DNA of 55,935 bases from Clostridia bacterium (GTDB lineage Bacteria > Bacillota > Clostridia > Lachnospirales > Lachnospiraceae), in NCBI GenBank assembly GCA_021201905.1, contig JAJQEA010000390.1:1-55935 (forward strand). The letters are read 5' to 3'. Of the stretch, positions 11,385-42,153 are shown one piece after another; the stretch's first letter is position 1; each line of letters opens with the position of its first letter. The notes under the pieces are model-generated. The model was not told the origin of the DNA. It worked only from the letters and a program-made list of their open reading frames with translations, and made no database searches. Made by a program: the position numbers and the translations under genes.

Positions 11385-11397
11385 CTTCTCCACCTCC

Positions 11398-22681: not shown

Positions 22682-24055
22682 TCACACCTGCCCCGCCATC
22701 TGCCTTCGGATATGTTTCCACCATATCCATGCCATCAATGCCGCCATTGCCTCGGAAACAGGAAAGCACCACCACAGCGCATCCAGCCCAAACAGAGCCG
22801 CCAGTATATAGGCGGCCGGCAGCAGTACAATCAGCTGGCGGAAAAAGGAGATAACCAGGCTTTCCATTCCTCTTCCCAGAGCCTGAAATACGGCGCTGTA
22901 AATAACGGAAACAGAGGCGCACAGGTAACCGAAGCTGATTACCCTGAGCGCAGTCACCCCAATGGACATCATGTGCTCCGAGGCATTAAACATTGCCATT
23001 ATCTCCACTGCGAATACCTGGGACAGGGCAAACCCGGCCAGCATGATGGCTGTGGCATAGCCCAAGCTGTAATGAATGGCCTTTCGTATCCGCTCAGGCC
23101 TTCCCGCCCCCAGATTATAACCGATAATGGGTATCATGCCGTTGTTGAGGCCAAATACGGGCATGAAGATAAAACTCTGGATCTTAAAATAGACTCCCAT
23201 CACCGCCGCGGCTGTGGCCGTGTAGGAAATCAGTATCTGGTTCAGTCCAAAGGTCATCACAGATGCGATGGACTGCATGACAATGGCCGGGATTCCCACC
23301 TTATAAATCTGCTTAATGATTCCCATATCCGGCCGAAACCCGCGAAATATAAACTGCACCTCATGGTTGACGTGCTTATTAAAATAAACGTTCATCCCCA
23401 TGCCGGCCAGCTGCCCTGTCACAGTGGCTATGGCTGCCCCGCTGATACCCATTCTGGGAAAGCCGAATAATCCGAAAATCAGAATAGGGTCGAGAATGAT
23501 ATTAATAACAGCTCCCGCCCCCTGTGTAATCATGGTATAAAATGTTTTTCCAGTTCCCTGCAATATCCGCTCCAGCACAACCTGTTCCAGCACGCCCACT
23601 GAAAAAACCAGGCAAATGGACAGGTACTGCACCCCCAGCTCTATGATTTCCTCTGAATCTGTCTACCATTTGAAAAAAGTCCTGGTAAAAAACAATCCAA
23701 ATACCAGGAAGAACAGATAGGTAAGCAGCATAATGAAAATCCCGTTGACAGCCGTCCTGTTGACGCCGTCACGGTTTCGTTCCCCCAGATATCGGGACAG
23801 CAGGGAATTGACACCTACTCCGGTCCCCACCGCCACGCCAATCAGCAGATTCTGAACCGAATATGCCAGTGAAACCGCGGTCAGCGCCTGTTCGCTGATT
23901 CTGGCAACGAACAGGCTGTCCACAATATTGTACATGGCCTGGATGATCATGGATATTATAATTGGAAGCGCCATGGTCACCAGCAGACGGTTGACCGGCA
24001 TAACTCCCATCTTATTCTCCCCGTCTGTCCGGGGCTGTCTTTCTATTTGCCTCAT
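22682..24055 (-). pseudogene. MATE family efflux protein interrupted by an in-frame TAG
   Basis: The two halves are one MATE (multidrug/toxin or cation-coupled metabolite exporter) gene of 458 codons, the normal length. Residues 1-130 run from MRQIERQPRTDGE through LPIIISMIIQAMYNIVD to FTRTFFKW. Next is TAG at 23665-23663, and the same frame resumes at TDSEEIIELGVQYLSICLVFS and continues to the natural end. No frameshift exists; a single base change would restore the protein. GAGGAG precedes the ATG. It is the last gene of the catabolic operon, 11 bases after pduL, where it might export a product. It could be a true nonsense mutation, a sequencing error or a suppressed codon. Confidence 0.85.
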
Positions 24056-24066
24056 GTTCTCCTCGT

Positions 24067-24705
24067 TTATGCGATGGACGAATCCGTCAAATCGGAGTCT
24101 GTCAAACCAGAATCCGCCAAACCATTTCCCCGCAGCTTTACTATGGTTCCATAAACCGTGCCGGACATGGCCACCGCGTTTGCCTCGTCCGTGTCAATAT
24201 GGGCCGCCGTGGAATAATGTTCGCTGACCCGAACCACCATGTCCTTGAATATCAATGACCGGTCATTGATATTCACCTCAAAGGCAACCGTTTCACGGTC
24301 AGTCACTCCCAGCCTTTTGGCATCCTCCGGCGTGGTGTGTATGTGGCGCTTTGCCGCAATGACCCCTTCCTTCAGAATAACCGTTCCCCTGGGGCCTTCC
24401 AGTACACAGCTGCCGCTTCCCTCCACATCGCCGGATTCCCGTATGGGTGCGCTGACCCCGATGGTTCTGGCATCTGTCAGTGAGATTTCCACCTGGGTGC
24501 GCTCTCTCACAGGTCCCAGCACGGACATGGAAAACTTACCCTTAGGTCCAATCACGCTCACCCGTTCCTCACATGCAAACTGTCCTGGCTGGCTTAACAT
24601 TTTCTTCACCGTCAGTTCATAGCCTTCCCCAAAAAGTATTTCTAAATGCTTTTTTGATAAATGAATGTGTCTTGCTGATATTTCAATCAATATATTCTGC
24701 CCCAC
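24067..24705 (-). CDS. pduL: Phosphate propanoyltransferase (phosphotransacylase) PduL
   Basis: PduL converts an acyl-CoA plus phosphate to an acyl phosphate and CoA, allowing a kinase to make ATP. The 212-residue protein shows both zinc-binding histidine motifs, ISARHIHLS near residue 10 and AAKRHIHTTPEDAKRLG, plus VLGPVRERTQVE. It lacks an evident encapsulation peptide, and no microcompartment shell genes are in view, so it probably acts in the cytosol. The start is GTG, eight bases after AGGAGG. The last 17 residues are a loose LTDSDLTDSS repeat. It follows the MBL hydrolase gene by 20 bases and likely handles the acyl-CoA made by the E1/E2/E3 complex of the same operon. Confidence 0.93.
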   Translation of the reverse strand: MGQNILIEISARHIHLSKKHLEILFGEGYELTVKKMLSQPGQFACEERVSVIGPKGKFSMSVLGPVRERTQVEISLTDARTIGVSAPIRESGDVEGSGSCVLEGPRGTVILKEGVIAAKRHIHTTPEDAKRLGVTDRETVAFEVNINDRSLIFKDMVVRVSEHYSTAAHIDTDEANAVAMSGTVYGTIVKLRGNGLADSGLTDSDLTDSSIA

Positions 24706-24725
24706 AATTATATCCTCCTGACATA

Positions 24726-25487
24726 CTAAATGCTCACTTTTTGAAGCGGATCCGTAAGCGCCTTCATGGGTGGCAGTATTGTTTCATATTGTCTCATGTC
24801 TTCTGACATCATATTCCGGAAATGAATCTGGTCATCCTCCGCAAAGGGAAGGTGACAAAAAATAATCTCTTTTGTCCGTATGGACTGTGTAAGTACCCTG
24901 CGTCCCCTGGGAAGATGCAGAAAAAGCGGGTTGGCAATCACAGCGTCAAATTCCAGCGCTCCTGCCATCTGTTTGAAAAACACGCCGTCATAATCAGAGT
25001 CTCCCAGGATCAATACCTTTTTTTCATCAGCCTCCAGCACATAGCAAAGGTGGCTGACCTTCTCATACTCCCTGCCCGCATGCCTCGAAGGAAAGGCTGT
25101 CAGGCTTCCCGTCTCCCACAGCCGTATGCTCCGGCACTGGCCCATGGGCAGATCAATGGACTCTGTGCTGCAAGCGCCTGCCTTAAGCTTTGAGGATACG
25201 CCATCCTGTGTATCCTCAGGCACCACCAGCATCTCAGGTTCTGCCTCCTGCAAGTACCGGTTCACCAGGTCCAAATCAAAGTGGTCCTCATGAAAATGGG
25301 TGAATGCCATCCATCTGATTCCGTCAAAGGGAGGATGCCTTTTCATGATCTGTTCCCGCATATAGGGGGGCACCGGACTGAACATCCCATTCTTCCGGCT
25401 GTGCAGACCGTCCAGCAGCAGTTTCTGGCCGCTGCACTCCAGCAACAGGCCCGCATTGGCCACCAGGGTAACATGGATCGTTCCCAT
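24726..25487 (-). CDS. MBL-fold metallo-hydrolase
   Basis: This 253-residue protein of the metallo-beta-lactamase fold has its metal-binding motif THFHEDHFD at about residues 63-71, then ILGDSDYDG as the later Asp ligand. The substrate class is not recognisable; family members hydrolyse lactones, thioesters, phosphodiesters and other bonds. Its ATG shares one base with the stop of the preceding gene (TGATG), so it is translationally coupled to the alpha-beta barrel protein. A lactonase or thioesterase role in the pathway is only a guess. Confidence 0.75.
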   Translation of the reverse strand: MGTIHVTLVANAGLLLECSGQKLLLDGLHSRKNGMFSPVPPYMREQIMKRHPPFDGIRWMAFTHFHEDHFDLDLVNRYLQEAEPEMLVVPEDTQDGVSSKLKAGACSTESIDLPMGQCRSIRLWETGSLTAFPSRHAGREYEKVSHLCYVLEADEKKVLILGDSDYDGVFFKQMAGALEFDAVIANPLFLHLPRGRRVLTQSIRTKEIIFCHLPFAEDDQIHFRNMMSEDMRQYETILPPMKALTDPLQKVSI

Positions 25488-25834
25488 CAAACAAGACTGC
25501 GCATCTGGTATCTGCGGTCTGTTTCATGGCCTGCCCTCACAAAAGTCATGTTTTCCGCCCCAAATACCCGTGAAATCTCATCCTTTTTCCCGGAAAGCCA
25601 TTCCTGGTCAATACTCCGGTACGAGGCATGGTCCCTCCAGAAATAAAGAGATGTCACACGGCCGGGACTGGTTTCGCTCACCCAAATCTGCCATCCGCAA
25701 AAGCCATCCAGACCGGCCAGCTCTTTTGCCATAATCTCATATTCCAATTCCACATACCTCTTTACCAGCTCCGGCCTGATTTGGAATACCAGTTCTTCGA
25801 TAAAAAGGCCTGGTTCGTTTACTCTCAGTTCCAT
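25487..25834 (-). CDS. Dimeric alpha-beta barrel (ABM-like) protein
   Basis: This 115-residue protein resembles small ferredoxin-like-fold proteins of the antibiotic-biosynthesis-monooxygenase group (IEELVFQIRPELVKRYVELEYEI, then GFCGWQIWVS and SLYFWRDHASYRSID). Such proteins dimerise and act as small oxygenases, isomerases or accessory subunits. Cofactor residues cannot be assigned. GGAGGTG precedes the ATG. It lies 21 bases after lpdA and overlaps the MBL gene by one base. Confidence 0.6.
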   Translation of the reverse strand: MELRVNEPGLFIEELVFQIRPELVKRYVELEYEIMAKELAGLDGFCGWQIWVSETSPGRVTSLYFWRDHASYRSIDQEWLSGKKDEISRVFGAENMTFVRAGHETDRRYQMRSLV

Positions 25835-25855
25835 GTGCGCACCTCCATATCCCGT

Positions 25856-27262
25856 TTACCTGTTTTTGACCGGCGGCATATGAATGGCTTTTCCCAGAAG
25901 ATTGGATACCGCCTCGTCAAATGCCTCTGACAGCGTGGGATGCCCGTGCATAACACCGGCCGCCTCCTCCACCGTAAACATTCCGTTCATTGCAATGGCT
26001 GCCTCCGCTATGAGGTCGCTTGCGTTAGGGCCGATGATATGCACCCCTAACAGCCTGGATTTATCTTTGGCGGCAATCACCTTCACCATGCCCTGGGCAT
26101 CCCCCATGGTGAGAGCCTTGCCGTTGCCGGAAAACTGGTATTTGCTGGTAATATAATCGATTCCCTGCTCCTTTGCCTGTTCCTCCGATAAGCCGATGCT
26201 GGACACATCCGGAAACGTAAAGATGGAATTGGGAATCAGGCTGTAATCCACCTGGGTCTTCTCTCCTGCCATGCGCTCAACCGCCGCCTTGCCTTCCTCC
26301 GATGCCACATGGGCCAGCATGACCCGTCCCGTCACATCTCCGATGGCGTAGATTCCCGGCACATTTGTCTCATAATTTTCGTCTACCTTGATTCCTTTGC
26401 GGTCATAAAGCACTCCCGCACCGTCCAGATTCAGGCCTTCCACGTCCATTTCACGTCCGGTTGACACAAGAACCTGCCGGCAGGAAAGGACCTGCTTTTT
26501 GCCTCCCGCATCCACCTGTACGGACAGATTGTTTCCTTTTTTCTCAATCTTCTCAACCTTAGAGCCTGTCATGATTGAAATACCGCGCTTTTCCAGCAGG
26601 CTCTTTAATCTGGTTGTGATTTCCACATCCACATTGGGGATGATGTGGGGCATAAACTCCACCACGGTTACCTTTGCGCCAAAGGACTGGTAAATACCGG
26701 CAAACTCAATGCCAATCACCCCGCCTCCGATGATCACGATTTCCTCCGGCACATTCTTCATATCCAGCGCCTCTTTGCTGGTGATGACGCCCTCCAGGTC
26801 CATCCCCTCAATGGGAAGCCTGGATGATTTGGAGCCGGACGCAATGAGAATCCGCTTTGTCTCCAGTCTCTTTACAGCGCCGTCTTTGCCGGTCACTTCC
26901 ACCAGTCCGGCTTTTATGATTTTAGCGCAGCCCTTCTCAATGGTCACCTTGTTGGACTTCAGCAAATATTCCACTCCGCCAGTCAGCGTCTTTACAATGC
27001 TGTTCTTGCGGGCCTGCACCTGCTCCATATTGAGCCTGTATCCCTCAAGCTCAATTCCAAATTCCCTGCTGTGGTCCATATAACTGACTACCTGGGCATT
27101 TTTATAAAGTGCTTTTGTGGGAATACATCCATAATTCAGACAGGTCCCGCCGCACGCGTCCTTTTCTGCAATCACTACCTTCATTCCCAGCTGCGCAGCC
27201 CTGATTGCGGCCACATATCCGCCCGGGCCTGCGCCGATTACCACCAAATCTGTACCTGCCAT
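25856..27262 (-). CDS. lpdA: Dihydrolipoyl dehydrogenase (E3)
   Basis: This 468-residue flavoprotein re-oxidises dihydrolipoyl groups of the E2 subunit and passes electrons to NAD+. Visible marks are FAD-binding VIGAGPGGYVAAI, redox disulfide GGTCLNYGCIPTKAL, NAD-binding IIGGGVIGIEFA, YAIGDVTGRVMLAHVASEEG, and the C-terminal interface AMNGMFTVEEAAGVMHGHPTLSE split across the dimer. The ATG at 27262 follows GGGAGG; the upstream ATG lacks a site. It belongs to the dehydrogenase complex in this operon, although three genes separate it from E2. Confidence 0.95.
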   Translation of the reverse strand: MAGTDLVVIGAGPGGYVAAIRAAQLGMKVVIAEKDACGGTCLNYGCIPTKALYKNAQVVSYMDHSREFGIELEGYRLNMEQVQARKNSIVKTLTGGVEYLLKSNKVTIEKGCAKIIKAGLVEVTGKDGAVKRLETKRILIASGSKSSRLPIEGMDLEGVITSKEALDMKNVPEEIVIIGGGVIGIEFAGIYQSFGAKVTVVEFMPHIIPNVDVEITTRLKSLLEKRGISIMTGSKVEKIEKKGNNLSVQVDAGGKKQVLSCRQVLVSTGREMDVEGLNLDGAGVLYDRKGIKVDENYETNVPGIYAIGDVTGRVMLAHVASEEGKAAVERMAGEKTQVDYSLIPNSIFTFPDVSSIGLSEEQAKEQGIDYITSKYQFSGNGKALTMGDAQGMVKVIAAKDKSRLLGVHIIGPNASDLIAEAAIAMNGMFTVEEAAGVMHGHPTLSEAFDEAVSNLLGKAIHMPPVKNR

Positions 27263-27291
27263 AGTTCCTCCCATCTGACATTCACTCCATA

Positions 27292-28299
27292 TCAGTACTT
27301 ATATCCCGACAAATCCATTTCATTTGTAACACCGTAACGAATTTTCTGGCGGGTAAATATAAAGTTGCTTTCATGAATTCCCAGCGTCAGAAAATCTGCG
27401 TGGGGATGATCCAAGTGCCCGAATTCCGCCCCATAGCCCGGCGTTTTTTGTCCGCCCACAAATACCATGGAATAATTGATAAAATATTCGTCCAGCATTC
27501 CCTGCTGCAGCAAATGGGTGCAGTAGGACGGCGCCTCGATGCAGAGCTTCTCCAGCCCCCATTTCTTAAGGGCATACATGAGCACCTTTGTATCCGGGTT
27601 CTCTCCCTCGCCTGTCACTATGACCGGAAATTCAGTAAAGTCTGCGTAAAGCTCACCCAAATCCACATGATCCACATCCTCTGTTGTCTTAAAGGATCCA
27701 ATCACGGGATGCTTTAGCGGGGAATTGGCCCTTATGTAATCAGCGCCCCTGGGGGACGTGGCAATCACCAGCTTGTATTCCTCCTTTGGATTTACATTGA
27801 AAATATAGTGGTCAAAGGGAATATCCGTGCCGTCCAGTGATACAATGACGCCGCAGGGCTGGTACTTCTTTCCAAGCACTTCCTTCCTCTGCCTGGTCAG
27901 ACGCTCCTCATATACATGGCAGGTAATGCCCGGTTCACTGAGCAGGGTGCGGGCGCCTATGATGATTCCGTCCGCATAGGCCCGCAGTACATTCAGCACC
28001 CAGAAATCCCCCAGTGATCCGTCCGGGTCCAGAAAGTTATTCTTGGCGATGAGCGGTCCGGAAGGATTATCCCCGTAGGCCATTTTACCGTCGGAAGAAA
28101 GCACGATGGAGGAAAAGGTATAGGGCCTGTGTGCGGGCGCCTTCGGGAAATATATATCCGTGTAGTACTCAGCCACATCCGGCATCACCGCTGTCTCGGC
28201 AGACTCCCTCTTTATCTGGTCCAATATCTCATCACATTTTTTGACCATTTGAATCTTTAAATTCTGTTTCGGTATTTCAAAGAACACTAACTCGTTCAT
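27292..28299 (-). CDS. RibD C-terminal / dihydrofolate-reductase-like reductase
   Basis: This 335-residue protein contains a RibD_C (DHFR-fold) domain: RPYTFSSIVLSSDGKMAYGD, ADGIIIGARTLLSE, and TEFPVIVTGEGE. The last quarter (HLLQQGMLDEYFINYSMVFVGG) is also typical. Relatives reduce pyrimidine, pterin or related ring intermediates with NADPH. About 45 extra residues precede the domain. No deaminase domain and no other riboflavin genes are nearby, so riboflavin synthesis is unlikely. AGGAGG precedes the ATG and the gene is 10 bases after the amidohydrolase gene, suggesting consecutive steps. Confidence 0.8.
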   Translation of the reverse strand: MNELVFFEIPKQNLKIQMVKKCDEILDQIKRESAETAVMPDVAEYYTDIYFPKAPAHRPYTFSSIVLSSDGKMAYGDNPSGPLIAKNNFLDPDGSLGDFWVLNVLRAYADGIIIGARTLLSEPGITCHVYEERLTRQRKEVLGKKYQPCGVIVSLDGTDIPFDHYIFNVNPKEEYKLVIATSPRGADYIRANSPLKHPVIGSFKTTEDVDHVDLGELYADFTEFPVIVTGEGENPDTKVLMYALKKWGLEKLCIEAPSYCTHLLQQGMLDEYFINYSMVFVGGQKTPGYGAEFGHLDHPHADFLTLGIHESNFIFTRQKIRYGVTNEMDLSGYKY

Positions 28300-28309
28300 C
28301 CGTTTCCTC

Positions 28310-29710
28310 CTATAGCCCCAGATTTCCAATCTTTCTGCCCCACTGCGTGTTTCCCAGACCCACTTCCGATATCAGCTTTTCAGCCGCCTTCTGGGTGGCA
28401 TACAATACTTTTTCTTCGTCAATCATGGTCATGTGCTTCTGCTCCATCACAAACACGCCGTCCACCATGACAGACTCGATATTTACCTGTCCGGAAGAAT
28501 ATACAATCGCGCTGACCGGGTCATGAACCGGTATGGAACGGCCGTGGAAGGGGTCGTAAATTACCAAATCCGCCTTCATGCCCGGCGCGATTGCCCCCAG
28601 ATCCCCTTCCCGCATAACTGCCTTTGCGCCTCCCAGGGTTGCCAGCTCCAGAACCTTGGAGGCCGGCATTGCGGCCGCGTCTTTTAAATGTACCTTTTGG
28701 AGCAGGGCGGTTGTCTTTAACACCTCCATCATATCCTGGGTATCGTTGCTGGCTGAACTGTCGCAGGCAAGGCTGACTGTCAGTCCCTCCCTGACCATCC
28801 TCTCAACCGGCGCCACGCCGGAGGCTAGAATCATGTTGGACACAGGATTGTGGCTGACCTTCACATCATACTGCTTGAAGATATCAAAGTCCTCCTCCTC
28901 CATGCAGACACAGTGTACCGCGATAAAATCAGGTCCGATGAATCCGAGGCGTTCCAGATGAGGTATTGTCCTGCCGCCTCTTACCTGCGTACAGTATTTA
29001 TCATCATCCTCTGATTCCAGCACATGCATGGTAAGGGGAATATGCATCTCATTGGCCATCTTGCGCATCTCCCGGTATCCGTCGTCTGTATTATCCCAGA
29101 TAATGCCCGGCGCCAGGGCCACGCTCATTCTGCTGTGCCCCTGGTACTTCCTGTACAGACGCCTCACATCGTCAAACATATCCTGTTCCGTATCGTGATG
29201 GGCCACCTTGAATTCCGGCGGGAAGTTTGCGGTATTGGTGAACCCCCGGCCGTATATGCCGCGTATTCCGATATCCTCCATGGCCTGGGTCACATAATCG
29301 CTGAGCCCCGGACTGGTATGGCAGTACATATAGTCCAATATGGTGGTGGTGCCGGACTGAATGGCCTCCATGCATCCCGTCAGGGCAGCGTAATAACACA
29401 TTTCCCCGTCAAATCTGTGGAGAGCCGTACGCACGGAGCTGTCCAGCCAGTCAAATAAAAGCTTATCCCTGCCCAGACCCTTTAGCATGGTCTGGAACAA
29501 ATGGGAATGGGTGCTTATCATGCCCGGAAATACGAACTTTCCTTTTGCGTCTACCACCCTGGAGGCTTCGTAACAGGATGCCAGTTCCCCGCCTCCAACT
29601 GTTGTAATCTTGTCTTTATCAATCACAATGCATCCATTGCTGATTATATTTCTGTCCTTATCCATTGTTATGATATATGCGTTCTTAATCATAACGTCTG
29701 CTTTCTTCAT
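28310..29710 (-). CDS. Amidohydrolase/deaminase family protein (COG0402, SsnA/TrzN-like)
   Basis: This 466-residue metal-dependent hydrolase belongs to the group that deaminates or hydrolyses purine-, triazine- and pterin-like rings. The metal ligands are visible: FPGMISTHSHLFQTML (HxH), LTMHVLES, IAVHCVCM and SLACDSSASND (catalytic Asp). The ATG at 29710 follows AGGAGG, and the longer frame has no site. It lies 53 bases after the E2 gene. In this operon it may remove an amino group from, or open, the heterocyclic substrate. The exact substrate cannot be deduced. Confidence 0.85.
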   Translation of the reverse strand: MKKADVMIKNAYIITMDKDRNIISNGCIVIDKDKITTVGGGELASCYEASRVVDAKGKFVFPGMISTHSHLFQTMLKGLGRDKLLFDWLDSSVRTALHRFDGEMCYYAALTGCMEAIQSGTTTILDYMYCHTSPGLSDYVTQAMEDIGIRGIYGRGFTNTANFPPEFKVAHHDTEQDMFDDVRRLYRKYQGHSRMSVALAPGIIWDNTDDGYREMRKMANEMHIPLTMHVLESEDDDKYCTQVRGGRTIPHLERLGFIGPDFIAVHCVCMEEEDFDIFKQYDVKVSHNPVSNMILASGVAPVERMVREGLTVSLACDSSASNDTQDMMEVLKTTALLQKVHLKDAAAMPASKVLELATLGGAKAVMREGDLGAIAPGMKADLVIYDPFHGRSIPVHDPVSAIVYSSGQVNIESVMVDGVFVMEQKHMTMIDEEKVLYATQKAAEKLISEVGLGNTQWGRKIGNLGL

Positions 29711-29763
29711 ATGGCTTTCCTCCTGTTGGCGCGCAGATGGCGGGGATGAGTGTTTACGGGCTT

Positions 29764-31113
29764 TTAAACCCATCTAAAATCCTGCAGGCTGTCCGTCACT
29801 TCTTTTAAGAATCTTGCCGCCGGCGCCCCGTTGACGATATGGTGGTCATGGGTAAGGCCGAAGTTCATGACGGAAGCGGGATAGAAACCGCCGTCCTTTA
29901 CCATCAGCTTCTCGATAATGGATCCCACGCCTAAAATGGCTGATTCCGGAACATTTAACACAGGGGTAAAATAGGTGATTCCAAACATACCTAGGTTGGT
30001 GATGGTAATGGTTGCACCGCCCAGCTGGTCGCTTGTCAGCTTATTGCTCTTTGCCTGCTGGGTAAGGTCTGATAACTCCAGGCAGATTGTGCGCAGATCC
30101 TTCATATTCGCATCCCGGATCACAGGCACAATCAGTCCGTCAGGGATATCCACCGCAACGCCGATGTGGATACGGCTGCTGATTTTAATATGATTCTCGT
30201 CCGCCATGGTGCTTCTCAAAGCCTTATGGTTCTCCAATGCCATGGCCACTGCCTTTATCAGCATTGCCGTGTAGCTCAGCTTCACGCCTGCATTGGTATA
30301 TTTTCCCTTTAACTGTCTGTACACCCTGACCAGCTCTGTTATTTCCGCCTCTGTGGCTATGGTGGTCTGGGCGGTTGTCTGCAGGCTGTTCTGCATTGCT
30401 TTGGCAATGGTGGTCTCCATGGTGCTCATCTTGACAATAACATCCTCACCCTCACACGGACGTGTGTCAAAGACGGCCTTAGGTGCTGCAGCGGCCGGGG
30501 CGGATGGGGAGCCGGCACCGGGTGCGGATGCCGGAGCAGAAGCGGCACCAGGCGCGGATGCCAAAGCAGATGCGGCACCGGGCGCGGATGCCGGAGCAGC
30601 GGATACAGATGCGGCGCCTTCCTGGTCCTTCCTGGGGATTCCATGTTTCTTCAAATCTGAAATCGTGATTGCGCCTAACAGTCCGGTTCCCTGGATGTGG
30701 GAATATTCCAGCCCCTGCTCCTCTGCTACCTTTTTGGCCCGGGGCGTGATTTTTATGTCGGCTGCTGCGGCCTGCTGCGGGGCAGGGGATGTTTCAGCCG
30801 CCGGTTCCCCGCTGTTCACGAAAGTCCCGTCATCGTCCCGGCTTCCCCCGCACTCCGCCGATATATCCTCGTCCGCCGTGTCCGCCAGAATCGCGATGGC
30901 TTCCCCGCAGGCAGCCTCCTCCCCTTCGGGAAGCAGGATCTTGCGGAGGATCCCGTCTTTGGGTGCTTCGCATGTATTGGTAATTTTATCTGTTGTTATT
31001 TCCGCCAGGGCGCTTCCCTTTGTGACAGAAGCCCCTTCCTCCACCAGCCAGGAGCCCAGGACTCCTGTCTCCATGGACAAACCGAATTTGGGCATAATTA
31101 CTTTTGTAACCAT
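29764..31113 (-). CDS. 2-oxoacid/acetoin-type dehydrogenase E2 (lipoyl acyltransferase)
   Basis: The 449-residue E2 core protein has one lipoyl domain (lipoylated Lys43 in EITTDKITN), a peripheral-subunit-binding domain (ITPRAKKVAEEQGLEYSHIQGTG cut at about 122-143), an Ala/Pro-rich linker built on three 30-bp repeats, and the catalytic domain. The active-site motif reads DHHIVNG (423-429): the catalytic His is kept, but the usual Asp of DHRxxDG is Asn428. It transfers the acyl group made by E1 to CoA. GAGAGGAAA precedes the ATG. Its lipoate is probably attached by the LplA encoded in the same operon. Confidence 0.92.
   Translation of the reverse strand: MVTKVIMPKFGLSMETGVLGSWLVEEGASVTKGSALAEITTDKITNTCEAPKDGILRKILLPEGEEAACGEAIAILADTADEDISAECGGSRDDDGTFVNSGEPAAETSPAPQQAAAADIKITPRAKKVAEEQGLEYSHIQGTGLLGAITISDLKKHGIPRKDQEGAASVSAAPASAPGAASALASAPGAASAPASAPGAGSPSAPAAAAPKAVFDTRPCEGEDVIVKMSTMETTIAKAMQNSLQTTAQTTIATEAEITELVRVYRQLKGKYTNAGVKLSYTAMLIKAVAMALENHKALRSTMADENHIKISSRIHIGVAVDIPDGLIVPVIRDANMKDLRTICLELSDLTQQAKSNKLTSDQLGGATITITNLGMFGITYFTPVLNVPESAILGVGSIIEKLMVKDGGFYPASVMNFGLTHDHHIVNGAPAARFLKEVTDSLQDFRWV
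30515..30604 (-). repeat. Three 30-bp repeats in the E2 linker
   Basis: Period-30 units at 30515-30544, 30545-30574 and 30575-30604 encode ASAPGAASAx decapeptides, a typical flexible linker letting the lipoyl domain swing. Confidence 0.8.
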
Positions 31114-31148
31114 ATGTATTTCCTCTCAATCTCCACTCATGGCTTTCT

Positions 31149-33109: not shown

Positions 33110-33151
33110 TTCATTTCCTCCTAATCCTCTTCTTCGCCGCCGCGTATTTAA

Positions 33152-34111: not shown

Positions 34112-34142
34112 GTATGATCCTCCGTGTTTTATTTCATCCTGC

Positions 34143-34871: not shown

Positions 34872-37150
34872 CAAGCCAATCCATCCCTTCTTTCAAATGT
34901 CCCTTTTTTCCGGGCCAGGAGTTTAAGCACTGCATCCGGTTTTAACGGCAGATGGTGTACCTCATATCCGATTGCATTTGCAACGGCATTTGCAACTGCC
35001 CCGGCCGAGGGTACCACCGAACACTCCCCGATGCTCTTTGCCCCATACGGCCCGGTGGGCTCCGTCTCCTCCACCAGTCCCACCTTGATGGGCGGCATTT
35101 CATTGGCATTCATAATATGGTACTGCTTGAAGGTAGTGTTTTTTACCTTACCCCCGCCGTCAATTATGATTCCCTCTGAGAGCGCATACCCAAGCCCCAT
35201 CTGCACCGCTCCCTCGATCTGGCCTTCCACGGACATGGGATTGAGGGCCTTTCCCACATCGTGCACCGCCGTATATTCCAGGACCTTTACCCCGCCGGTC
35301 TCAGTGTCCACCGATACCTTTACAAAATGTGCGCCGTAGGACATTGCCAATGCATAGGAGGCAAAGGTGTCCGCACAGCATATATCCCTCTGGTTGACTT
35401 TCCTTGCGTGTGTGATGACTTCCTCCAGGGAAGCCTTCTTTTCGGGATTATTCCTTACACAGACCATGTTGTCCTTCAGCTCCAGGTTCTGCTGCTCCTC
35501 CTCCAGAAGCTGGGCTGCCTCTGTCAGCAATTCCTGCCTGATATGGCATGCCGCCTTAACAGCGGCATTGCAGCTCACATACGTGCCTCTGCTGGAATAA
35601 TTTCCCAAATCATACATGGTTGCATCTGTATCCGCCTGTATGCATTCAATCCGGTCCAAGCTGATTCCCAGCTCCTGGGCCACTGCCTGGGCCTGGGTTG
35701 TCACGGAGCCGTTGCCCATATCGCTGACTCCGGTAAACATGACAACGGAACCATCCTCGTTCATTTTAAGTATCACCCCTGTTGTGTCGGGGCACGCGCC
35801 ATACACTCCGTTTCCATGGGTGGCCGCTGCCATTCCCACTCCAATCCGGTACCTGCCCTTTGCCGCCCGGGATTCCTCCTGTTCCTTTACCGCCGCTTCC
35901 CAGCCGAACAGCTCCATCCCCTTTTTCACACAGTCAATGGGTCTTGGGTTTCCATGCCTCTGCCCGTTTCTCTGGTCAAACCCGTCCGGTTCAACCAGGT
36001 TCTTTAACTGCATGTCAATGATGCTTATATGTAAGTCCCTGGCAATCTTATTCATCTGGCACTGCTGTGCAAAAAACTCCTGCGGAGAGCCAAAGCCTCT
36101 CATTGCCCCTGCAATGGGAGTGTTGGTATAGACCGGAGTGGCCCTGAACCGGATATTGGGCGTCTTATGGTTTTTAAAAAACTTACCGCTCATAGCCCAT
36201 ACAATACTCATGGTCCCGCCCGCATACGCCCCGGCGTTGATGATGACCTGCATATCCTGGGATAGTATCGTCCCATCCTTTTTGACGCCGGTCTTAATCT
36301 TTATTTCCATTCCGTGGCGCGTTCTGGATGACACAATATCCTCCCGCCTGTTGTAAACCAGCTTCACCGGCCGTCCTGTTTTCATGGCCAGCAGGGCTGT
36401 CACAGGCTCTGTCACCGTATCGATTTTCCCTCCGAATCCGCCGCCCATACCGGGATTCACCACGCGCACTCTGCTCATGGGCAGTCCGAAAATCCGGCTG
36501 AGATTCTTCCTGTATCCGAACACATCCTGGCTGGGCGTATAGACCGTCAGCTTGCCGCTGCTGTCATAGACCGCAATGGACGCGTGTGTCTCAATGGCGC
36601 TGTGGTGGATGGCAGGCGTGGAATAGGTATCTTCATATATATAATTCGCTGCCCTAAAGCCTTCTTCCACATCGCCGGCCCCCATATCCACCGGAAAAAT
36701 GATATTGTTTTCCCCGTGAATGGGATATGCACCTTCCTTCAGGGCCTCCTTTGGGTCAGTGTAAAAAGGCAGTTCTTCATATTCCACCTGGATTAACTTC
36801 ACTGCCTGTTCCGTAATCTTCACCGTATCCGCCGCCACGGCCGCCACCTTGTCTCCCACATAGCGCACCGTATCATCAAATACCCGTTCCGTCTTGTGGC
36901 CGTCAATCTCCTCCCCGCAGCTGTTGTATAATGTGTCCGGGGCGTTTAAATAGCACACCACCCCACGGACGCCCTCCAGCGCCTCTGCCTTGCTTGTATC
37001 AATCCTCTTTATTCTGGCATGGGGCACAGGGCTGAACAATATTTTAGCGTGGAGCATTCCCGGAAATTCCAGGTCAGCCGTATATTTCAACTGCCCGGTT
37101 ACCTTCATGGCCGCATCGCGGACCGGGATGCTCTGTCCTATGATTCCCAT
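34871..37150 (-). CDS. Molybdenum hydroxylase, large subunit (xanthine dehydrogenase family)
   Basis: This 759-residue molybdopterin-binding subunit belongs to the xanthine dehydrogenase/aldehyde oxidoreductase family, which hydroxylates carbon atoms next to ring nitrogens with water as oxygen source. Visible marks are GMGGGFGGK, RGFGSPQ, and the catalytic Glu in GAKSIGE (about residue 709). The ATG directly follows the stop of the [2Fe-2S] subunit gene, so the two form one enzyme. No FAD subunit gene is next to them. Its first place in the operon after lplA suggests it carries out the first oxidation of the imported substrate. Confidence 0.93.
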   Translation of the reverse strand: MGIIGQSIPVRDAAMKVTGQLKYTADLEFPGMLHAKILFSPVPHARIKRIDTSKAEALEGVRGVVCYLNAPDTLYNSCGEEIDGHKTERVFDDTVRYVGDKVAAVAADTVKITEQAVKLIQVEYEELPFYTDPKEALKEGAYPIHGENNIIFPVDMGAGDVEEGFRAANYIYEDTYSTPAIHHSAIETHASIAVYDSSGKLTVYTPSQDVFGYRKNLSRIFGLPMSRVRVVNPGMGGGFGGKIDTVTEPVTALLAMKTGRPVKLVYNRREDIVSSRTRHGMEIKIKTGVKKDGTILSQDMQVIINAGAYAGGTMSIVWAMSGKFFKNHKTPNIRFRATPVYTNTPIAGAMRGFGSPQEFFAQQCQMNKIARDLHISIIDMQLKNLVEPDGFDQRNGQRHGNPRPIDCVKKGMELFGWEAAVKEQEESRAAKGRYRIGVGMAAATHGNGVYGACPDTTGVILKMNEDGSVVMFTGVSDMGNGSVTTQAQAVAQELGISLDRIECIQADTDATMYDLGNYSSRGTYVSCNAAVKAACHIRQELLTEAAQLLEEEQQNLELKDNMVCVRNNPEKKASLEEVITHARKVNQRDICCADTFASYALAMSYGAHFVKVSVDTETGGVKVLEYTAVHDVGKALNPMSVEGQIEGAVQMGLGYALSEGIIIDGGGKVKNTTFKQYHIMNANEMPPIKVGLVEETEPTGPYGAKSIGECSVVPSAGAVANAVANAIGYEVHHLPLKPDAVLKLLARKKGTFERRDGLA

Positions 37151-37651
37151 TCAGCTCTCCTCCTTCTTTTCCCCGGCCTTTGCCTCCATCATCCGCTTTG
37201 CGGCCAGTTTGATTGCCTCCACAATCTTTACGTACCCCGTGCATCTGCACAGGTTATTGGAGATACCGTTGTTCCTGATTTCCTCCTCCGTGGGATTCTC
37301 AATCCGGTCCAAAAGCGCCTTGGCTGACATCACCATTCCCGGCGTGCAGTACCCGCATTGCACTGCCCCGGCGTCGATGAACGCCTGCTGGATGGGATGC
37401 AGCTCAGTTCCCCTTGAAAGACCTTCTATGGTCTCGATCTTCTTTCCTTCCGCGTTTCTCGCAAGCACCAGACAGGAGTTCACTGCTTCCCCGTCAATGA
37501 TGACCTTACAGGCGCCGCAGTCCCCTGTGCTGCATCCGCACTTTGCCCCTGTCAGACCCAGAACCTCCCGCAGCACAAATAGCAAGGTCCAGTTTTTTTC
37601 TACTCCGACTTGTGTTATGGCTCCGTTTATATCCAGACTTATCTGCTCCAT
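37151..37651 (-). CDS. Molybdenum hydroxylase, [2Fe-2S] subunit
   Basis: The 166-residue electron-transfer subunit has a plant-type [2Fe-2S] cluster (CGCSTGDCGAC with a later Cys in NSC) and the family-specific second cluster (QCGYCTPGM, CRCTGY). It passes electrons from the molybdenum site to the acceptor. It is 35 bases downstream of lplA, and its stop abuts the start of the large-subunit gene. Confidence 0.95.
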   Translation of the reverse strand: MEQISLDINGAITQVGVEKNWTLLFVLREVLGLTGAKCGCSTGDCGACKVIIDGEAVNSCLVLARNAEGKKIETIEGLSRGTELHPIQQAFIDAGAVQCGYCTPGMVMSAKALLDRIENPTEEEIRNNGISNNLCRCTGYVKIVEAIKLAAKRMMEAKAGEKKEES

Positions 37652-37686
37652 TGTCTCACTCCCATCCTTGTCTCATTCCCATGCGT

Positions 37687-38685
37687 TTATGTTATGTCTT
37701 CTCCCATGATGCAGCTGACCACCTCTTCCTTTGTTATGGTTCCGAAGTATGGTCTTATATCTAATGTTTCAAAAACACGGCTGACAGCGTCCCTTTCATA
37801 AACCACGCCGCTCAGCAGCTGTTCTATCTCTTTCATCTCCATACATCCCAGAAAGTCACCCTCAAACCGGATCTGTTCAATCCGGGAATTCTTTAAAGCT
37901 GCTTTTACCGTTATGCCGCCTCCTGCAAACCGTTGGCTGTATACCAGATCTGCCGGCGGATTCTTTCCATAGGTCCAGAGGAAGGATTCATATTTGTCAC
38001 GGGCCAGGTTCATAATCTCCATGCGCTCCTCCTGTGACAATCCATATACCTTTCTCTCTGTTCCCTCAAAAAGGGCCTGCAACAGTTTTTCCCTGAATTC
38101 CATAACCCCCATGTCACCAGAAAGATGCTCCGCTATGGTGGTGACTCTTGAGCGCACCGACTTAATTCCCTTTGATACAAGCTTATCCTGCTTTACCCGC
38201 AATGCCCTGCTTAATATTTCCAAGTCTGAACTAAATAACAGTGTTCCGTGAAACAATACCCGGTTCTTATAGATCCTCACCGCGCTTCCGGATATCTTGG
38301 CGTCTCCCAGCACCAGATCATTGCGCCCGTTAATCCCTGCCTGGATTCCCATTCCCCGCAGCGCTTTTACAACGGGATTTAAAAAAATGCTGTAATCTGT
38401 GTTTGTAAAATCTTCCTGCTCCATGATAAAGCTGAAGCACAGGTTTCCCAAATCATGGTACACCGCGCCGCCGCCGCTGGTTCTTCTCACCACATCGATT
38501 CCGCGGGCTTTGACGAATTCCTCACATATCTCTTCATGGGTATTTTGAAAAGCGCCTACCACAATGGTGGGGCGGTTTCTCCACAGCATGAGTACGAGCT
38601 CGTTCATGTCCTCTTTCTTTAAGAAATATTCTTCATATGCCAGGTTTTCTGAACCAATGATGCTGTTCGTCTCCACGTATATCAT
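37687..38685 (-). CDS. lplA: Lipoate-protein ligase A
   Basis: The 332-residue enzyme activates free lipoate with ATP and attaches it to the E2 lipoyl lysine. Conserved parts are RRTSGGGAVYHDLGN, NGRNDLVLGDAKISGSA and the C-terminal accessory domain (RFAGGGITVKAALK onward). The ATG at 38685 follows GGAAGAGGA. A dedicated ligase at the head of the operon that encodes E2 implies the complex is made functional from scavenged lipoate. A strong hairpin (38719-38760) separates it from the permease gene upstream, so an unseen promoter or read-through must supply transcripts. Confidence 0.93.
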   Translation of the reverse strand: MIYVETNSIIGSENLAYEEYFLKKEDMNELVLMLWRNRPTIVVGAFQNTHEEICEEFVKARGIDVVRRTSGGGAVYHDLGNLCFSFIMEQEDFTNTDYSIFLNPVVKALRGMGIQAGINGRNDLVLGDAKISGSAVRIYKNRVLFHGTLLFSSDLEILSRALRVKQDKLVSKGIKSVRSRVTTIAEHLSGDMGVMEFREKLLQALFEGTERKVYGLSQEERMEIMNLARDKYESFLWTYGKNPPADLVYSQRFAGGGITVKAALKNSRIEQIRFEGDFLGCMEMKEIEQLLSGVVYERDAVSRVFETLDIRPYFGTITKEEVVSCIMGEDIT

Positions 38686-38718
38686 AGTAAAGGTCCTCTT
38701 CCTTCCAGCTCTTTTCCT

Positions 38719-38760
38719 AAAAAATATCCACATGGTGCAAGGCGCTCCATGTGGATATCC
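38719..38760 (-). terminator. Strong intrinsic terminator between permease and catabolic operon
   Basis: On the minus strand, ATATCCACATGG (38758-38747) and CCATGTGGATAT (38735-38724) form a perfect 12-bp stem with an 11-base loop, ending in six Ts. It follows the permease stop by 24 bases and precedes lplA by 33. Confidence 0.9.
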
Positions 38761-38784
38761 TTTCAAACGAATCCTTATGCTTTT

Positions 38785-40119
38785 TTACTGCACGGCCGGT
38801 ATTTCCTCTTCCAGCTTCACGCTGGCCACCTCATCCTCTGTCGTCTTTGGAAGAATCATGTTTAATACAAGAGCAACCAGCGCTGTACCGGGAATGCCGG
38901 TAAAAATAGTTGTAACGGTTGACGGCAGAAATGCCAGGTTAGCCAGTCCGAAATTGCCGCCAATGCCAATGGCCAGCGCAATGGCCAGTATGGTTGTGTT
39001 TCTCTCCGTAAAATCACTCATGCTGATAACCCGAAGCCCGGACGCTGATATCTGGCCGCACATTACAAGGACCGCCCCTGCCATAACACAGTTTGGAATC
39101 AGCGCAAGCAGCTGTGCCAGCTTTGGAAATACCGCAAAGGCGAGGAAGATGATTCCTCCCAGGCCTGTGACAAAGCGGCTTCCCACGCCAGTCATTGCAA
39201 CTATACCCACATTGGCGCTTCCCGTAATAACCGGTGCGCCGTTAAAGGCAGATGCGAATATTCCCGTGATACCGCCTCCGCGGATGGTCCTGGATAATTC
39301 CTCCGACGTGGGAAGCCGGTTGGATACCGCGGTGACCAGTCCGGTGGTATCCCCCACCATTTCCATCAGTGTGCCGATGTGAACCGCACAGATTGTCAGG
39401 ATTGCTCCCACATTGAAGTTCACTCCCCAGGCAAAGGGTTTGACCATGGAAAACCAGGAAGCCTCCCCTATACTTGAAAAATCCACCATGCCAAGGGCCG
39501 CGGCAACCACGTATCCGATTACCATGCCGATTAATATACAGCACTGCTTAACCAGGCCTCTTCCGAAAAAGTTCAGAAGAACAATCACCACAACGACCAT
39601 CACAGCAACCGCCAGTTCCGTCATCGCGGTTTCGCTTTCCACATTAAAGTTTCCGAATGCAGTTGCTCCGATACAGATACCCACGGTCAACACCACTGCT
39701 CCCGTGACGGTGGGGCTGAAATACTTATGTAAGTACCTGATTGCAATGGGACCAAATATAAACAGTACGCCGCTTCCAACCAGGGCAGCCCCAAAGGCGC
39801 CGTCGATTCCGATATTTGGATTATTGGCCGCCACCACCATTGGCGTAATCAGAGTAAAGCTGCCTCCTGATACAATGGGGAGCCTGGTGCCAATATGCTT
39901 TCCGATTCCAAAGGACTGGATAATGGTAGCAATACCGGTGATAAATAACGCGCACTGAATTAATAAAGCAGTTTCTTTGACACTGAGCCCAAATCCCATA
40001 GCAAGCAGCATACCTACCGCAATCTGTCCTGTAAATGCCGATAGTACATGCTGGAATGCCAATGGAAACGCTACTGCCAATCGGGGTTTGTCTTCGATAC
40101 CATAACTCATCATTCTCAT
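38785..40119 (-). CDS. NCS2 family nucleobase permease (xanthine/uracil type)
   Basis: The 444-residue membrane protein has about 14 hydrophobic segments. NCS2 marks are AFQHVLSAFTGQ near the N-terminus, the GSGVLFIFGPIAIRYLHKYFSPTVTGAVVL region and AFNGAPVITGSANVGIVAMTGVGSRFV with the conserved Asn. Family members import xanthine, uric acid, uracil or related rings with H+ or Na+. The ATG at 40119 follows AGGAG at six bases. The upstream leader is unusually structured. It is probably the importer for the substrate of the downstream catabolic operon. Confidence 0.9.
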   Translation of the reverse strand: MRMMSYGIEDKPRLAVAFPLAFQHVLSAFTGQIAVGMLLAMGFGLSVKETALLIQCALFITGIATIIQSFGIGKHIGTRLPIVSGGSFTLITPMVVAANNPNIGIDGAFGAALVGSGVLFIFGPIAIRYLHKYFSPTVTGAVVLTVGICIGATAFGNFNVESETAMTELAVAVMVVVVIVLLNFFGRGLVKQCCILIGMVIGYVVAAALGMVDFSSIGEASWFSMVKPFAWGVNFNVGAILTICAVHIGTLMEMVGDTTGLVTAVSNRLPTSEELSRTIRGGGITGIFASAFNGAPVITGSANVGIVAMTGVGSRFVTGLGGIIFLAFAVFPKLAQLLALIPNCVMAGAVLVMCGQISASGLRVISMSDFTERNTTILAIALAIGIGGNFGLANLAFLPSTVTTIFTGIPGTALVALVLNMILPKTTEDEVASVKLEEEIPAVQ

Positions 40120-40240
40120 AACTAACTCCTGTTTCTGATACTCCCGCCATTTCTGCCTAATGTATGAAGTTCTCCTTTTATTTTTTATATTCAAAACTTT
40201 ACCTGACGAATCGGCGCCATACTTTGTCAGGAATTGGCAG

Positions 40241-40324
40241 GGTTTCCATAATGTACTTGTCTGTTTATTTGAAAAAGACAAACACAAGGGCAAATAAACA
40301 TCATTCTGTATCCTTATGGAAACC
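40241..40324 (-). promoter_or_regulatory. Structured leader of the NCS2 permease gene
   Basis: In the minus-strand RNA, GGTTTCCATAA (40324-40314) pairs perfectly with TTATGGAAACC (40251-40241). Inside this 11-bp stem, GTTTATTTG (40300-40292 region) pairs with CAAATAAAC. TTGTCT in its loop can instead pair with AGACAA just downstream. A further CCTGAC/GTCAGG hairpin lies between the element and the ribosome site. It does not match the purine riboswitch core or any class I know. Confidence 0.45.
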
Positions 40325-40331
40325 GGTAGTT
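40320..40331. promoter_or_regulatory. Candidate LacI-type operator upstream of the permease gene
   Basis: AAACCGGTAGTTT carries an ACCGGT core with a central CG step, typical of LacI-family operators. A matching ATACCGGTAT is in the regulator's own promoter region (42194-42203). Confidence 0.3.
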
Positions 40332-40346
40332 TGAATCCTTGCCAGC

Positions 40347-40961
40347 TTAGTTATCCAAATTGAGTCGTTTTGTCAAATCAGCCATCTTGACACCCAGTGC
40401 CCTGGCCCGCTTTAATCCTTCCGGGTCATTCATTTCCCCTGACCCGTCCCCCGGATTCCAGAGACTGGCACCTGCATAAGTTCCTGCTCCCCCGTTACAG
40501 ACAACCATACCCTGTGTATGGTAAAATCCAAGGATTGCGTTCAGTGCCCCTTCCTGTCCTCCGTTTCTTGTTCCACCTACTGCAATTGCAGCGCCCACCT
40601 TCCTGTTAAAAAATGTGGGATCCTTTTTTATAATATTCCACGTGGGGCGGAACCGGTTGAAAAAGGCCGCCAGCTGTGCCGTAATATTCATCTCATATAC
40701 CGGTGAGGCAATAATCATCCCGTCAGCCTGATATACTTTTTCATAGAGAGGCGTCATATCGTCATCGTATACAGTGCACAGGACCGCGTCGTCCCTCAGG
40801 CACTTATTGCAGTGAATGCAGAAGTTCAGCTTCCTTGCCCGCAGTTCAATCAGCTCCACCTCCACGTCCCCTGTTTCCAGCGCGCCGTCCAGAGCTTCCC
40901 GCAATGCGGCATAGGATGATTTCCTTCTTGGGCTTCCACATATTCCGATAATTTTTACCAT
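40347..40961 (-). CDS. Iron-sulfur flavoprotein (flavodoxin-like, Isf type)
   Basis: The 204-residue protein has an N-terminal FMN-binding GICGSPRRKSSYA and the compact cysteine motif CIHCNKCLRDDAVLC (CX2CX2CX7C), the arrangement that ligates a [4Fe-4S] cluster in archaeal and clostridial iron-sulfur flavoproteins. SPVYEMNITAQLAAFFNRF completes the flavodoxin fold. It could shuttle electrons between ferredoxin and the molybdenum hydroxylase, which lacks an adjacent FAD subunit. AAGGAG precedes the ATG. Confidence 0.88.
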   Translation of the reverse strand: MVKIIGICGSPRRKSSYAALREALDGALETGDVEVELIELRARKLNFCIHCNKCLRDDAVLCTVYDDDMTPLYEKVYQADGMIIASPVYEMNITAQLAAFFNRFRPTWNIIKKDPTFFNRKVGAAIAVGGTRNGGQEGALNAILGFYHTQGMVVCNGGAGTYAGASLWNPGDGSGEMNDPEGLKRARALGVKMADLTKRLNLDN

Positions 40962-41042
40962 GCCGCCTACTCCTTCCGGGTCAGAACATTCCTCTGTTTA
41001 TACTCTATTTTTACATGTAACTTTTTTAACGCGCAAATATCT

Positions 41043-41127
41043 CTTGTGCAATATACACAATTTTGTTATGTGTTTTTGTTTATTATTATGCGTTTTTCTT
41101 AATTATATCAAAAAAACGGATTGTCAA
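41043..41127 (-). promoter_or_regulatory. AT-rich promoter region of the iron-sulfur flavoprotein gene
   Basis: The minus strand has TTGACA (41127-41122) and TATAAT (41107-41102), but only 14 bases apart, which is short. A TTGTG/CACAA dyad (41044-41060) lies downstream. The region is clearly regulatory, but the exact promoter is unresolved. Confidence 0.35.
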
Positions 41128-41135
41128 CGAATCCA

Positions 41136-41160
41136 AACCAGTTTCCGGATGAAACTGGTT
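41136..41160. promoter_or_regulatory. Perfect 10-bp inverted repeat after the LacI gene
   Basis: AACCAGTTTC (41136-41145) and GAAACTGGTT (41151-41160) pair around a 5-base loop, three bases past the LacI stop. No T-run follows directly in either direction. It may be a weak terminator or an operator upstream of the next gene. Confidence 0.45.
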
Positions 41161-41163
41161 ACA

Positions 41164-42153
41164 TCAGGCATTGTTTCTGGTGGTTTCCCTCAGCTTTAAT
41201 TCCACCGGAAACAGCACGCTTTTACTCTCTGTATTGCCCCTCAGCTTCTCCAGCAGCAGCCTGGCCGCACTTTCTCCCAGCTGGTAATTGGGCGCAACCA
41301 CGGTAGACAGGGAGGGAAGCACAAAGCTGGCAACCGGATTGTCGTCAAATCCCATGATCTCCACATCCTCCGGCACACGTATGCCGTGGAGCACCAGATA
41401 TCTCAACGCTGCAATTGCCATCATATCGTTAAACGCGAAAATAGCGGTTGGCCTCTCCTCCAGACGCATCAAATGCCCGCACGTGTCATGGGCATCCTGC
41501 AAATCCGCGTAATGGGCTTTCACCATGCAAAGGCGGCAGTCCTTTTTTTCCAGAAAAAAGTCATATACCGCCTTGCGGCGCCTCTCGGTCACCAAATAGG
41601 TGTCCGAGGTGCTGATTACCCCGAATATGCGGTTTCCTTCCTGGTACAGATATTCCAGCGCCATCTGGACCCCTTTATAATCATCGCTGTACACATATGT
41701 CGCATCCTTGGGGGTATCCGACTGCTCCATATTCTCGATCAGTACATAGGGCGCCTGGATCTTGGCCATGCGCAGCTCCTCGCTGTTAATAAAACCGGAA
41801 CCGGATATGATCATTCCGTCCACACTTCTCTGGTCCACCCTCCGCCAGAAATCCTCTATGCTGTCCGTTGAGAATACAAGGACCTTATAATCCGCCTCTC
41901 TCAATACAGCCTGGCTCCCCTCCACCAGCTGGTTGAAAAATTCATTGCAAAGGGTTGGGATTACACATAATATGGTCTTTGTATAACCGGTTGACAGGCT
42001 TTTGGCGGACGGGTTAGGTATGTAGTCCACCCGCTTCATGACCCCTATGATATGATTGCGTGTTTCTTCCGATACCTTCTCCGGCTGGTTAATACACCGG
42101 GAAACCGTTGCAACCGAAACCCCCGCCAGATACGCAATTTGTCTGATATTCAA
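41164..42153 (-). CDS. LacI family transcriptional regulator
   Basis: The 329-residue repressor has the LacI headpiece (IRQIAYLAGVSVATVSRCIN, hinge region PNPSAKSLSTG) and a periplasmic-binding-protein-like effector domain ending LRETTRNNA. The start is TTG, seven bases after AAGGAGG. It is encoded directly upstream of, and in the same direction as, the iron-sulfur flavoprotein, the permease and the catabolic operon, and is the likely local regulator. The effector is unknown; the family mostly senses sugars but also purines (PurR). Confidence 0.9.
   Translation of the reverse strand: MNIRQIAYLAGVSVATVSRCINQPEKVSEETRNHIIGVMKRVDYIPNPSAKSLSTGYTKTILCVIPTLCNEFFNQLVEGSQAVLREADYKVLVFSTDSIEDFWRRVDQRSVDGMIISGSGFINSEELRMAKIQAPYVLIENMEQSDTPKDATYVYSDDYKGVQMALEYLYQEGNRIFGVISTSDTYLVTERRRKAVYDFFLEKKDCRLCMVKAHYADLQDAHDTCGHLMRLEERPTAIFAFNDMMAIAALRYLVLHGIRVPEDVEIMGFDDNPVASFVLPSLSTVVAPNYQLGESAARLLLEKLRGNTESKSVLFPVELKLRETTRNNA

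Follow-up and report, generated by a model that had tools for sequence, protein, structure and literature searches.

The analyzed window, a 55,935-nucleotide stretch of contig JAJQEA010000390.1 (assembly GCA_021201905.1) from a Clostridia bacterium of the Lachnospiraceae, carries an 18-gene cluster that may encode the uptake and breakdown of a pterin ring. All 18 genes lie on the minus strand between positions 22682 and 42153, in the order given by a preliminary description made from the sequence alone. The tight spacing noted there was confirmed: 16 of the 17 intergenic distances range from −26 to +53 bases, the exception being the 202 bases between the first two genes, which code for a LacI-family regulator and an FMN_red protein. 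tRNA genes flank the cluster at both ends. The top-scoring terminator-like hairpin of the minus strand (42243-42218) lies before the regulator gene; terminator-like sites overall were no commoner than in shuffled sequence (17 versus a mean of 18.4). Seventeen of the 18 proteins passed a Pfam cut-off.

The LacI-family regulator (41164..42153; PF00356 and Peripla_BP_3) is followed by the FMN_red protein, which resembles iron-sulfur flavoproteins and is a presumed electron carrier (40347..40961; PF03358; Cys residues at positions 48, 51, 54, and 62). Next come an NCS2 nucleobase-type permease (38785..40293; PF00860), whose nearest NCBIfam model, pbuX, scored 315.9, below its cut-off of 414.15, and a lipoate-protein ligase, LplA (37687..38766; TIGR00545, 380.4, above the cut-off of 280). 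Two genes encode a molybdenum hydroxylase composed of an XdhC-like [2Fe-2S] subunit (37151..37651; PF01799 and PF00111) and an XdhA-like molybdenum-binding subunit (34871..37150; PF02738 and PF20256) that scored 650.7 with the NCBIfam XdhA model, below the cut-off of 780; the cluster holds no gene for a flavin adenine dinucleotide (FAD) subunit of this enzyme. A short-chain dehydrogenase (SDR; 34143..34874; PF00106) precedes a homolog of methenyl-tetrahydromethanopterin (H4MPT) cyclohydrolase, Mch, of a Gln161/His306 type (33152..34168; PF02289; TIGR03120, 298.3, above the cut-off of 228.8). The Mch-like gene probably starts about 19 codons downstream of its called start, judging from the length of most relatives (319 residues).

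The cluster also encodes the full set of components of a lipoyl-dependent 2-oxoacid dehydrogenase complex: an E1 alpha of the 2-oxoacid/acetoin type (32126..33109; PF00676, 260.5), E1 beta (31149..32126; PF02779 and PF02780), an E2 with lipoyl, E3-binding, and acyltransferase domains (29764..31113; PF00364, PF02817, and PF00198) and a TDK motif at its lipoyl site, residue 41, and the dihydrolipoyl dehydrogenase E3 (25856..27274; TIGR01350, 546, above the cut-off of 408.8). Between E2 and E3 lie the genes of an amidohydrolase, a presumed pterin deaminase whose closest solved structures are 8-oxoguanine and other deaminases (28310..29773; PF01979; motifs HSH, HVLE, HC, and CDSS), and of a reductase-like protein of the RibD/DHFR fold (27292..28329; PF01872, 31.9, cut-off 24.1). 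The remaining genes encode a small ABM-like protein (25487..25834), the one that fell short of its Pfam cut-off (PF03992, 20.8 bits versus 23.1) and also of that of TIGR03792 (38.7 versus 45.75), a metallo-beta-lactamase-fold (MBL) hydrolase (24726..25490; PF12706, 29.0, cut-off 27), a PduL-type phosphate acyltransferase (24067..24705; PF06130, 253.5), and a MATE-family transporter (22682..24055). Neither the ABM-like protein nor the MBL protein had a match in the PDB. The MATE gene had been taken as intact; it consists of two open frames (24055-23663 and 23632-22682), both with MatE matches, broken by one in-frame stop where the frame is open in the nearest relative, locus L003. The source assembly (G000) has a contamination estimate of 8%, against which can be set the occurrence of the same cluster on a 250-kb contig in L003.

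We gathered related loci from the GTDB collection with the profile of Mch alone (n = 76). Neighboring genes were called with a home-made open reading frame picker, which may miss or mis-start genes in GC-rich loci, and many of the fetched loci run to contig ends. In L003, the order from LacI to MATE is identical to that of the window, and the proteins are 84 to 98% identical. Six loci, L003, L004 to L006, L009, and L010, share a 12-gene core in the order NCS2-XdhC-XdhA-SDR-Mch-E1 alpha-E1 beta-E2-amidohydrolase-RibD-E3-ABM, into which LplA is inserted in L003 and in the window. L009 and L010 come from Pseudoflavonifractor; L004, L005, and L006 are Clostridioides difficile CD10-165, CD160, and HC132, each a GTDB species representative. 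This core therefore did not break into unrelated pieces in relatives, the outcome that the preliminary description had named as one that would speak against a single cluster. Its expectation of a neighborhood conserved in gut Firmicutes, composed of Mch, XdhA, E1/E2/E3, and PduL, held for all but the last: among the 76 loci, PduL and MATE of the window type were found only in L003. ATP recovery through PduL is thus not supported as part of the core, nor are MATE and the regulator, close relatives of which stand in other Mch and FolB operons. A LacI protein 53% identical to that of the window heads the Mch operon of L092, and relatives of the L003 regulator (41 to 47% identical) adjoin FolB operons.

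Beyond this core, relatives of the operon occur in other Clostridia, in Chloroflexi, and in marine actinobacteria. Within the order, Mch itself was present in just 2 of 392 genomes, one of them the window's own. E1 was found in 52 of the 76 Mch loci and E1 or E2 in 57, SDR in 57 (directly 5′ of Mch in 45), an amidohydrolase in 28, and a BMP-type transporter in 25. In the Mch tree, the window protein falls in a supported group of 23 rows, 22 of which have E1 nearby and the remaining one E2. The complete E1/E2/E3 set and its lipoate ligase, which match the composition of acetoin and pyruvate dehydrogenase complexes, might simply reflect a dehydrogenase operon for acetoin or a 2-oxoacid that happens to have unrelated neighbors. 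We regard this as very improbable, because Mch, SDR, and E1/E2 occur together in Bacillota, Chloroflexota, and Actinomycetota, with the order SDR-Mch-E1-E2 recurring, and the clade of the window E1 is tied to Mch. Moreover, the window E1 alpha is the single full-length E1_dh match of its genome (the four others are partial, at most 34 bits), which makes chance adjacency a poor explanation. An acetoin identity of E1 could not be drawn from plasmid neighbors, since all 652 plasmid matches were below 60% identity with generic annotations.

The Mch-like protein shares the fold family of the archaeal and methylotroph cyclohydrolases and retains their presumed catalytic pair. We aligned 96 Mch rows, comprising nine references (three from archaea and six from plasmid one-carbon [C1]-type operons, with neighboring genes such as those for methylene-H4MPT dehydrogenase, RFAP synthase, and Fae or ATP-grasp and RimK ligases) and 87 others, the window protein included. 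Arg204 is conserved in 96 of 96 rows, and position 207 is Glu in 91 and Asp in 5. These two residues, three positions apart, align in the window protein with the Arg/Glu pair of structure 1qlm; we take the catalytic pair of the Archaeoglobus fulgidus enzyme to be Arg183/Glu186. In contrast, position 161 is Glu in all nine references and Gln in 84 of the 87 others, the window protein among them, and position 306 is Phe in all nine references and His in 75 of the 87. Gln161 was also present in all 120 listed relatives from protein databases, a set retrieved through its resemblance to the window protein. In L025 (17325-18323) and L059, a Glu161 copy adjoins an amidohydrolase and shares its cluster with a Gln161 copy, as if it worked ahead of deamination.

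As Mch scored above the TIGR03120 cut-off, a working H4MPT one-carbon pathway was considered. It was set aside as hardly credible, on the grounds that residue 161 differs from that of all nine C1-type or archaeal enzymes, that the neighbors are catabolic, and that the pathway marker Ftr (PF01913) is absent from the window's own genome. Ftr was not found in 24 of 28 Mch-bearing genomes, G000 among them; it was found in three bacterial genomes of the set, G401, G413, and G415. In G413, the Mch located approximately 1.3 kb from Ftr is of the Glu161/Phe306 type and the four other copies are Gln161/His306; in G415 likewise, the Ftr-linked Mch is Glu161/Phe306 and the other copy Gln161/His306. RFAP synthase gave no match in G000, G392, G401, or G413, 19 bits in G415, and 303 bits in the archaeal genome G416. 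It was dropped as a discriminator because it was not found even in G413, so its absence from G000 discriminates poorly.

A second pterin enzyme family appears in sister clusters. FolB was found in 15 of 24 Mch-bearing genomes searched, and we read the surroundings of 15 FolB-like proteins from nine genomes. Twelve of the 15 stand with genes for BMP transporters, XdhA, RibD-like proteins, amidohydrolases, or Mch, in operons of uptake and breakdown rather than folate synthesis. In G407 (SUG1684), 1.2 kb separates a GntR-FeADH-ALDH-FolB operon from the Mch cluster downstream of it, which is composed of an FAD-NAD oxidoreductase (Pyr_redox), XdhCA, SDR, Mch, E1, E2, E3, ABM, and a BMP transporter. 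The G403 genes run from XdhA through an FAD subunit, XdhC, FMN_red, a gene with no name, a RibD-like gene, and an amidohydrolase to a tandem FolB and then FolB, the RibD-like protein being 52% identical to the L003 copy; in G414, FolB lies between amidohydrolases, downstream of Mch-E1. RibD-like relatives also adjoin Mch in L090 and FolB in L112.

These proteins belong to the family of the dihydroneopterin aldolase FolB, and the single-domain members of G402:C10, G403, G407, and G412 keep its Lys100 and Tyr54. In contrast, Glu74 is replaced by Gln in 18 of 21 domains of the FolB-like proteins (16 of 19 aligned and two read by eye); the three others, which have no Lys100 either, are the C-terminal halves of a single tandem type. 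Glu74 is present in 38 of 38 ordinary FolB proteins; 8 of these come from Mch-bearing genomes, the own genome among them, and the other 30 scored highest of the 41 matches obtained in the order. Parts of two published accounts report that Glu74 of Staphylococcus aureus FolB affects substrate affinity and that the residue of the same number in MtFolB hydrogen-bonds the pterin product (PMC2713229, PMC11328599). As side observations, tandem FolB-like proteins of about 239 residues, with a C-terminal half lacking the catalytic residues, occur in L109, L112, and L113, in two genomes without catabolic neighbors. In L092, L106, L108, and L078, an FGGY kinase and a zinc-dependent dehydrogenase adjoin Mch or FolB, and all of these loci but L106 have a DeoC/LacD-type aldolase as well; such a set hints at a pathway for a polyol side chain.

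A third protein of this kind, of the luciferase family, lies near Mch in actinobacterial and Chloroflexi clusters (34 members, 25 loci). It comes closest to Mer both among NCBIfam models, where its 182 bits stay under the cut-off of 276, and among solved structures. An alignment of 16 of the 34 members, picked for their proximity to Mch, shows Gln in place of the catalytic Glu6 of Mer and Gly in place of Asp96, each in at least 90%. In MTHFR, according to part of one report, N3 and the 2-amino group are bound by the residue that corresponds to Asp96 (PMC11094777). A further Mer position, C, was left unused because its numbering could not be mapped onto the printed chain.

The replacement of Glu by Gln in FolB and Mch, and the loss of an acidic contact in Mer, would be expected of enzymes that act on a ring already stripped of its 2-amino group, and the operon with the Gln-type Mch also encodes an amidohydrolase that resembles deaminases. 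The transporter binding proteins of related clusters come closest to BMP proteins of the nucleobase/triazine type. We therefore propose, with a probability of roughly 0.55, that the operon serves the uptake and breakdown of a pterin after its deamination to a lumazine-type 2,4-dioxopteridine. In the order of steps that we infer, the NCS2 permease would import the pterin ring and the amidohydrolase would take off its 2-amino group. XdhA/XdhC, with the iron-sulfur flavoprotein as electron partner, would hydroxylate (or dehydroxylate) the pyrazine ring beside a nitrogen, the RibD-like reductase would reduce the ring, and the Mch-like enzyme would hydrolyze a C=N bond and thereby open it. SDR and E1/E2/E3, lipoylated by the cluster's own ligase, might then oxidize the 2-oxo or hydroxyketo fragment of two or three carbons that is set free and cleave it thiolytically, with an acyl-CoA as the predicted product, which PduL could convert to an acyl phosphate. 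The proposal of a single catabolic cluster for an N-heterocycle is supported, and evidence from relatives points to a putative deaminated pterin within a substrate class that had been left wide.

A number of observations weigh against this proposal. A Gln anchor would suit xanthine- or flavin-like 2,4-dioxo rings too, and the role given to Mch residue 161 is a presumed one. Three Mch rows, that of L002 and, in both L025 and L059, that of the second copy, keep Glu161. G401, a 2.5-Mb Clostridia genome, has three Ftr matches, yet its five full-length Mch copies, none of which is on an Ftr-bearing contig, are all Gln161; either the C1 copy is absent from the assembly, or the Ftr-like proteins are otherwise used, or Gln161 permits C1 use. 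Three of the 15 FolB-like proteins (G401:C198, G404:C2, and G402:C5) had no catabolic neighbors in the stretch fetched. No catabolic FolB was found in G000 or G392, each of which has one Glu-type FolB. The FolB evidence thus bears on the window solely by way of gene families held in common, the Gln-type protein having been seen in sister clusters of other genomes and neither in the window operon nor in G000; the substrate would need either to have no side chain or to lose it by other means. Ring opening, the reaction of SsnA, is an alternative role for the amidohydrolase. The genomes with Mch degrade purines, which fits a purine substrate too, and PduL and MATE were found in L003 alone among the loci of the Mch scan.

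Purines are the next substrates to consider, and another anaerobic pathway for xanthine, uric acid, or methylated purines, in which the Mch-like enzyme would open the imidazole ring, appears unlikely, though it has arguments in its favor. The permease is xanthine-type, the hydroxylase is akin to XdhA, and the Gln anchor is suited to a 2,4-dioxopyrimidine. SsnA passed its cut-off in 18 of 21 Mch genomes versus 19 of 196 genomes of the order, in groups unmatched for kinship, and YgeY adjoins an Mch cluster in L053 and, in L111, FolB paired with an amidohydrolase. As laid out in part of PMC12507026, the reductive uric acid route comprises XdhD, YgfK/UacX, SsnA, HyuA, YgeW/UacY, YgeY, and YgeX. 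The cluster shares with it FAD-less XdhA/XdhC in Clostridia, a PF01979 amidohydrolase, and co-occurrence in the same genomes, and F420 luciferase-family enzymes in Chloroflexota are a further likeness. In contrast, the window holds none of the enzymes diagnostic of that route, the cluster adds Mch-like, RibD-like, and SDR proteins, E1/E2/E3, and a lipoate ligase, and its amidohydrolase scored below the SsnA level (196.5 bits versus a cut-off of 455.5). As the preliminary description had noted, marker genes of known purine routes are lacking: none of the 18 proteins was assigned by Pfam or NCBIfam to YgeX, YgeY, HyuA, YgeW/UacY, or YgfK/UacX. The own genome is already provided with a route for uric acid by an SsnA-type gene that lies on a separate contig, and the FolB-type enzymes, polyol kinase, aldolase, and dehydrogenase of sister clusters make no obvious purine sense.

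The catabolism of a flavin, a ribityl-lumazine, or a deazaflavin, in which a 2,4-dioxopyrimidine is present by nature, seems to us improbable. The BMP-type transporters of related clusters are of interest here, since some riboflavin transporters are BMP-type, and polyol enzymes occur in some of the clusters. Nevertheless, rings of this sort carry no amino group that could be taken off, although an amidohydrolase accompanies Mch in the window and in 28 of the 76 loci, and FolB works on the C6 side chains of pterins.

Bacteria, plants, and animals shed pterins in the form of folate, neopterin, biopterin, and insect pigments. Deaminases that act on pterins are known from bacteria. Removal of the 2-amino group by an amidohydrolase-type enzyme would liken the proposed pterin breakdown to folate degradation by carboxypeptidase G and a pterin deaminase. 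In the part of the enzyme-level study of Variovorax sp. F1 that bears on this, folate degradation halts at deaminated pteroate, and the fate of the lumazine ring is left open (PMC9513972). No description of the cluster was found in the open-access literature searched, in agreement with its preliminary designation as undescribed. More broadly, and with slightly less than an even chance in our estimation, a pathway for the pteridine ring may exist in at least three phyla. It would have recruited the C1 and folate enzymes Mch and FolB, joined by Mer in actinobacteria and Chloroflexi, with replacement in each of the acidic residue presumed to grip the 2-amino group; it would act after a deaminase, and its carbon would exit through a private lipoyl dehydrogenase complex. 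If this is true, these genes would be markers for lumazine-ring breakdown, both in Clostridia associated with the human gut and in bacteria of the sea and of sediments. The exchange of Glu for Gln would then separate catabolic copies from biosynthetic or C1 copies, so that databases could stop labeling the former as one-carbon enzymes.

Other features were noted in the Mch clusters. LipB (L025:14547-15206) and a radical SAM protein resembling lipoyl synthase (L072:8998-9882) replace the lipoate ligase in two of them. Two related proteins of about 500 residues (L090:7954-9483 and 10684-12156) flank the Mch of G060; the one searched had no Pfam match. A protein of 207 to 240 residues, part-similar to Mch, is encoded in L012 (16606-17328), L011, L070, L071, L092, and L093, often after a full-length Mch of a distinct clade, and is possibly a two-subunit relative. 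Lastly, the 58-kb contig G407:C65 (L106, L021, L033, and L071) carries three Mch, two FolB-like, and two XdhA genes, two BMP transporters, and a relative of the LacI regulator, which makes it a candidate pteridine super-locus.

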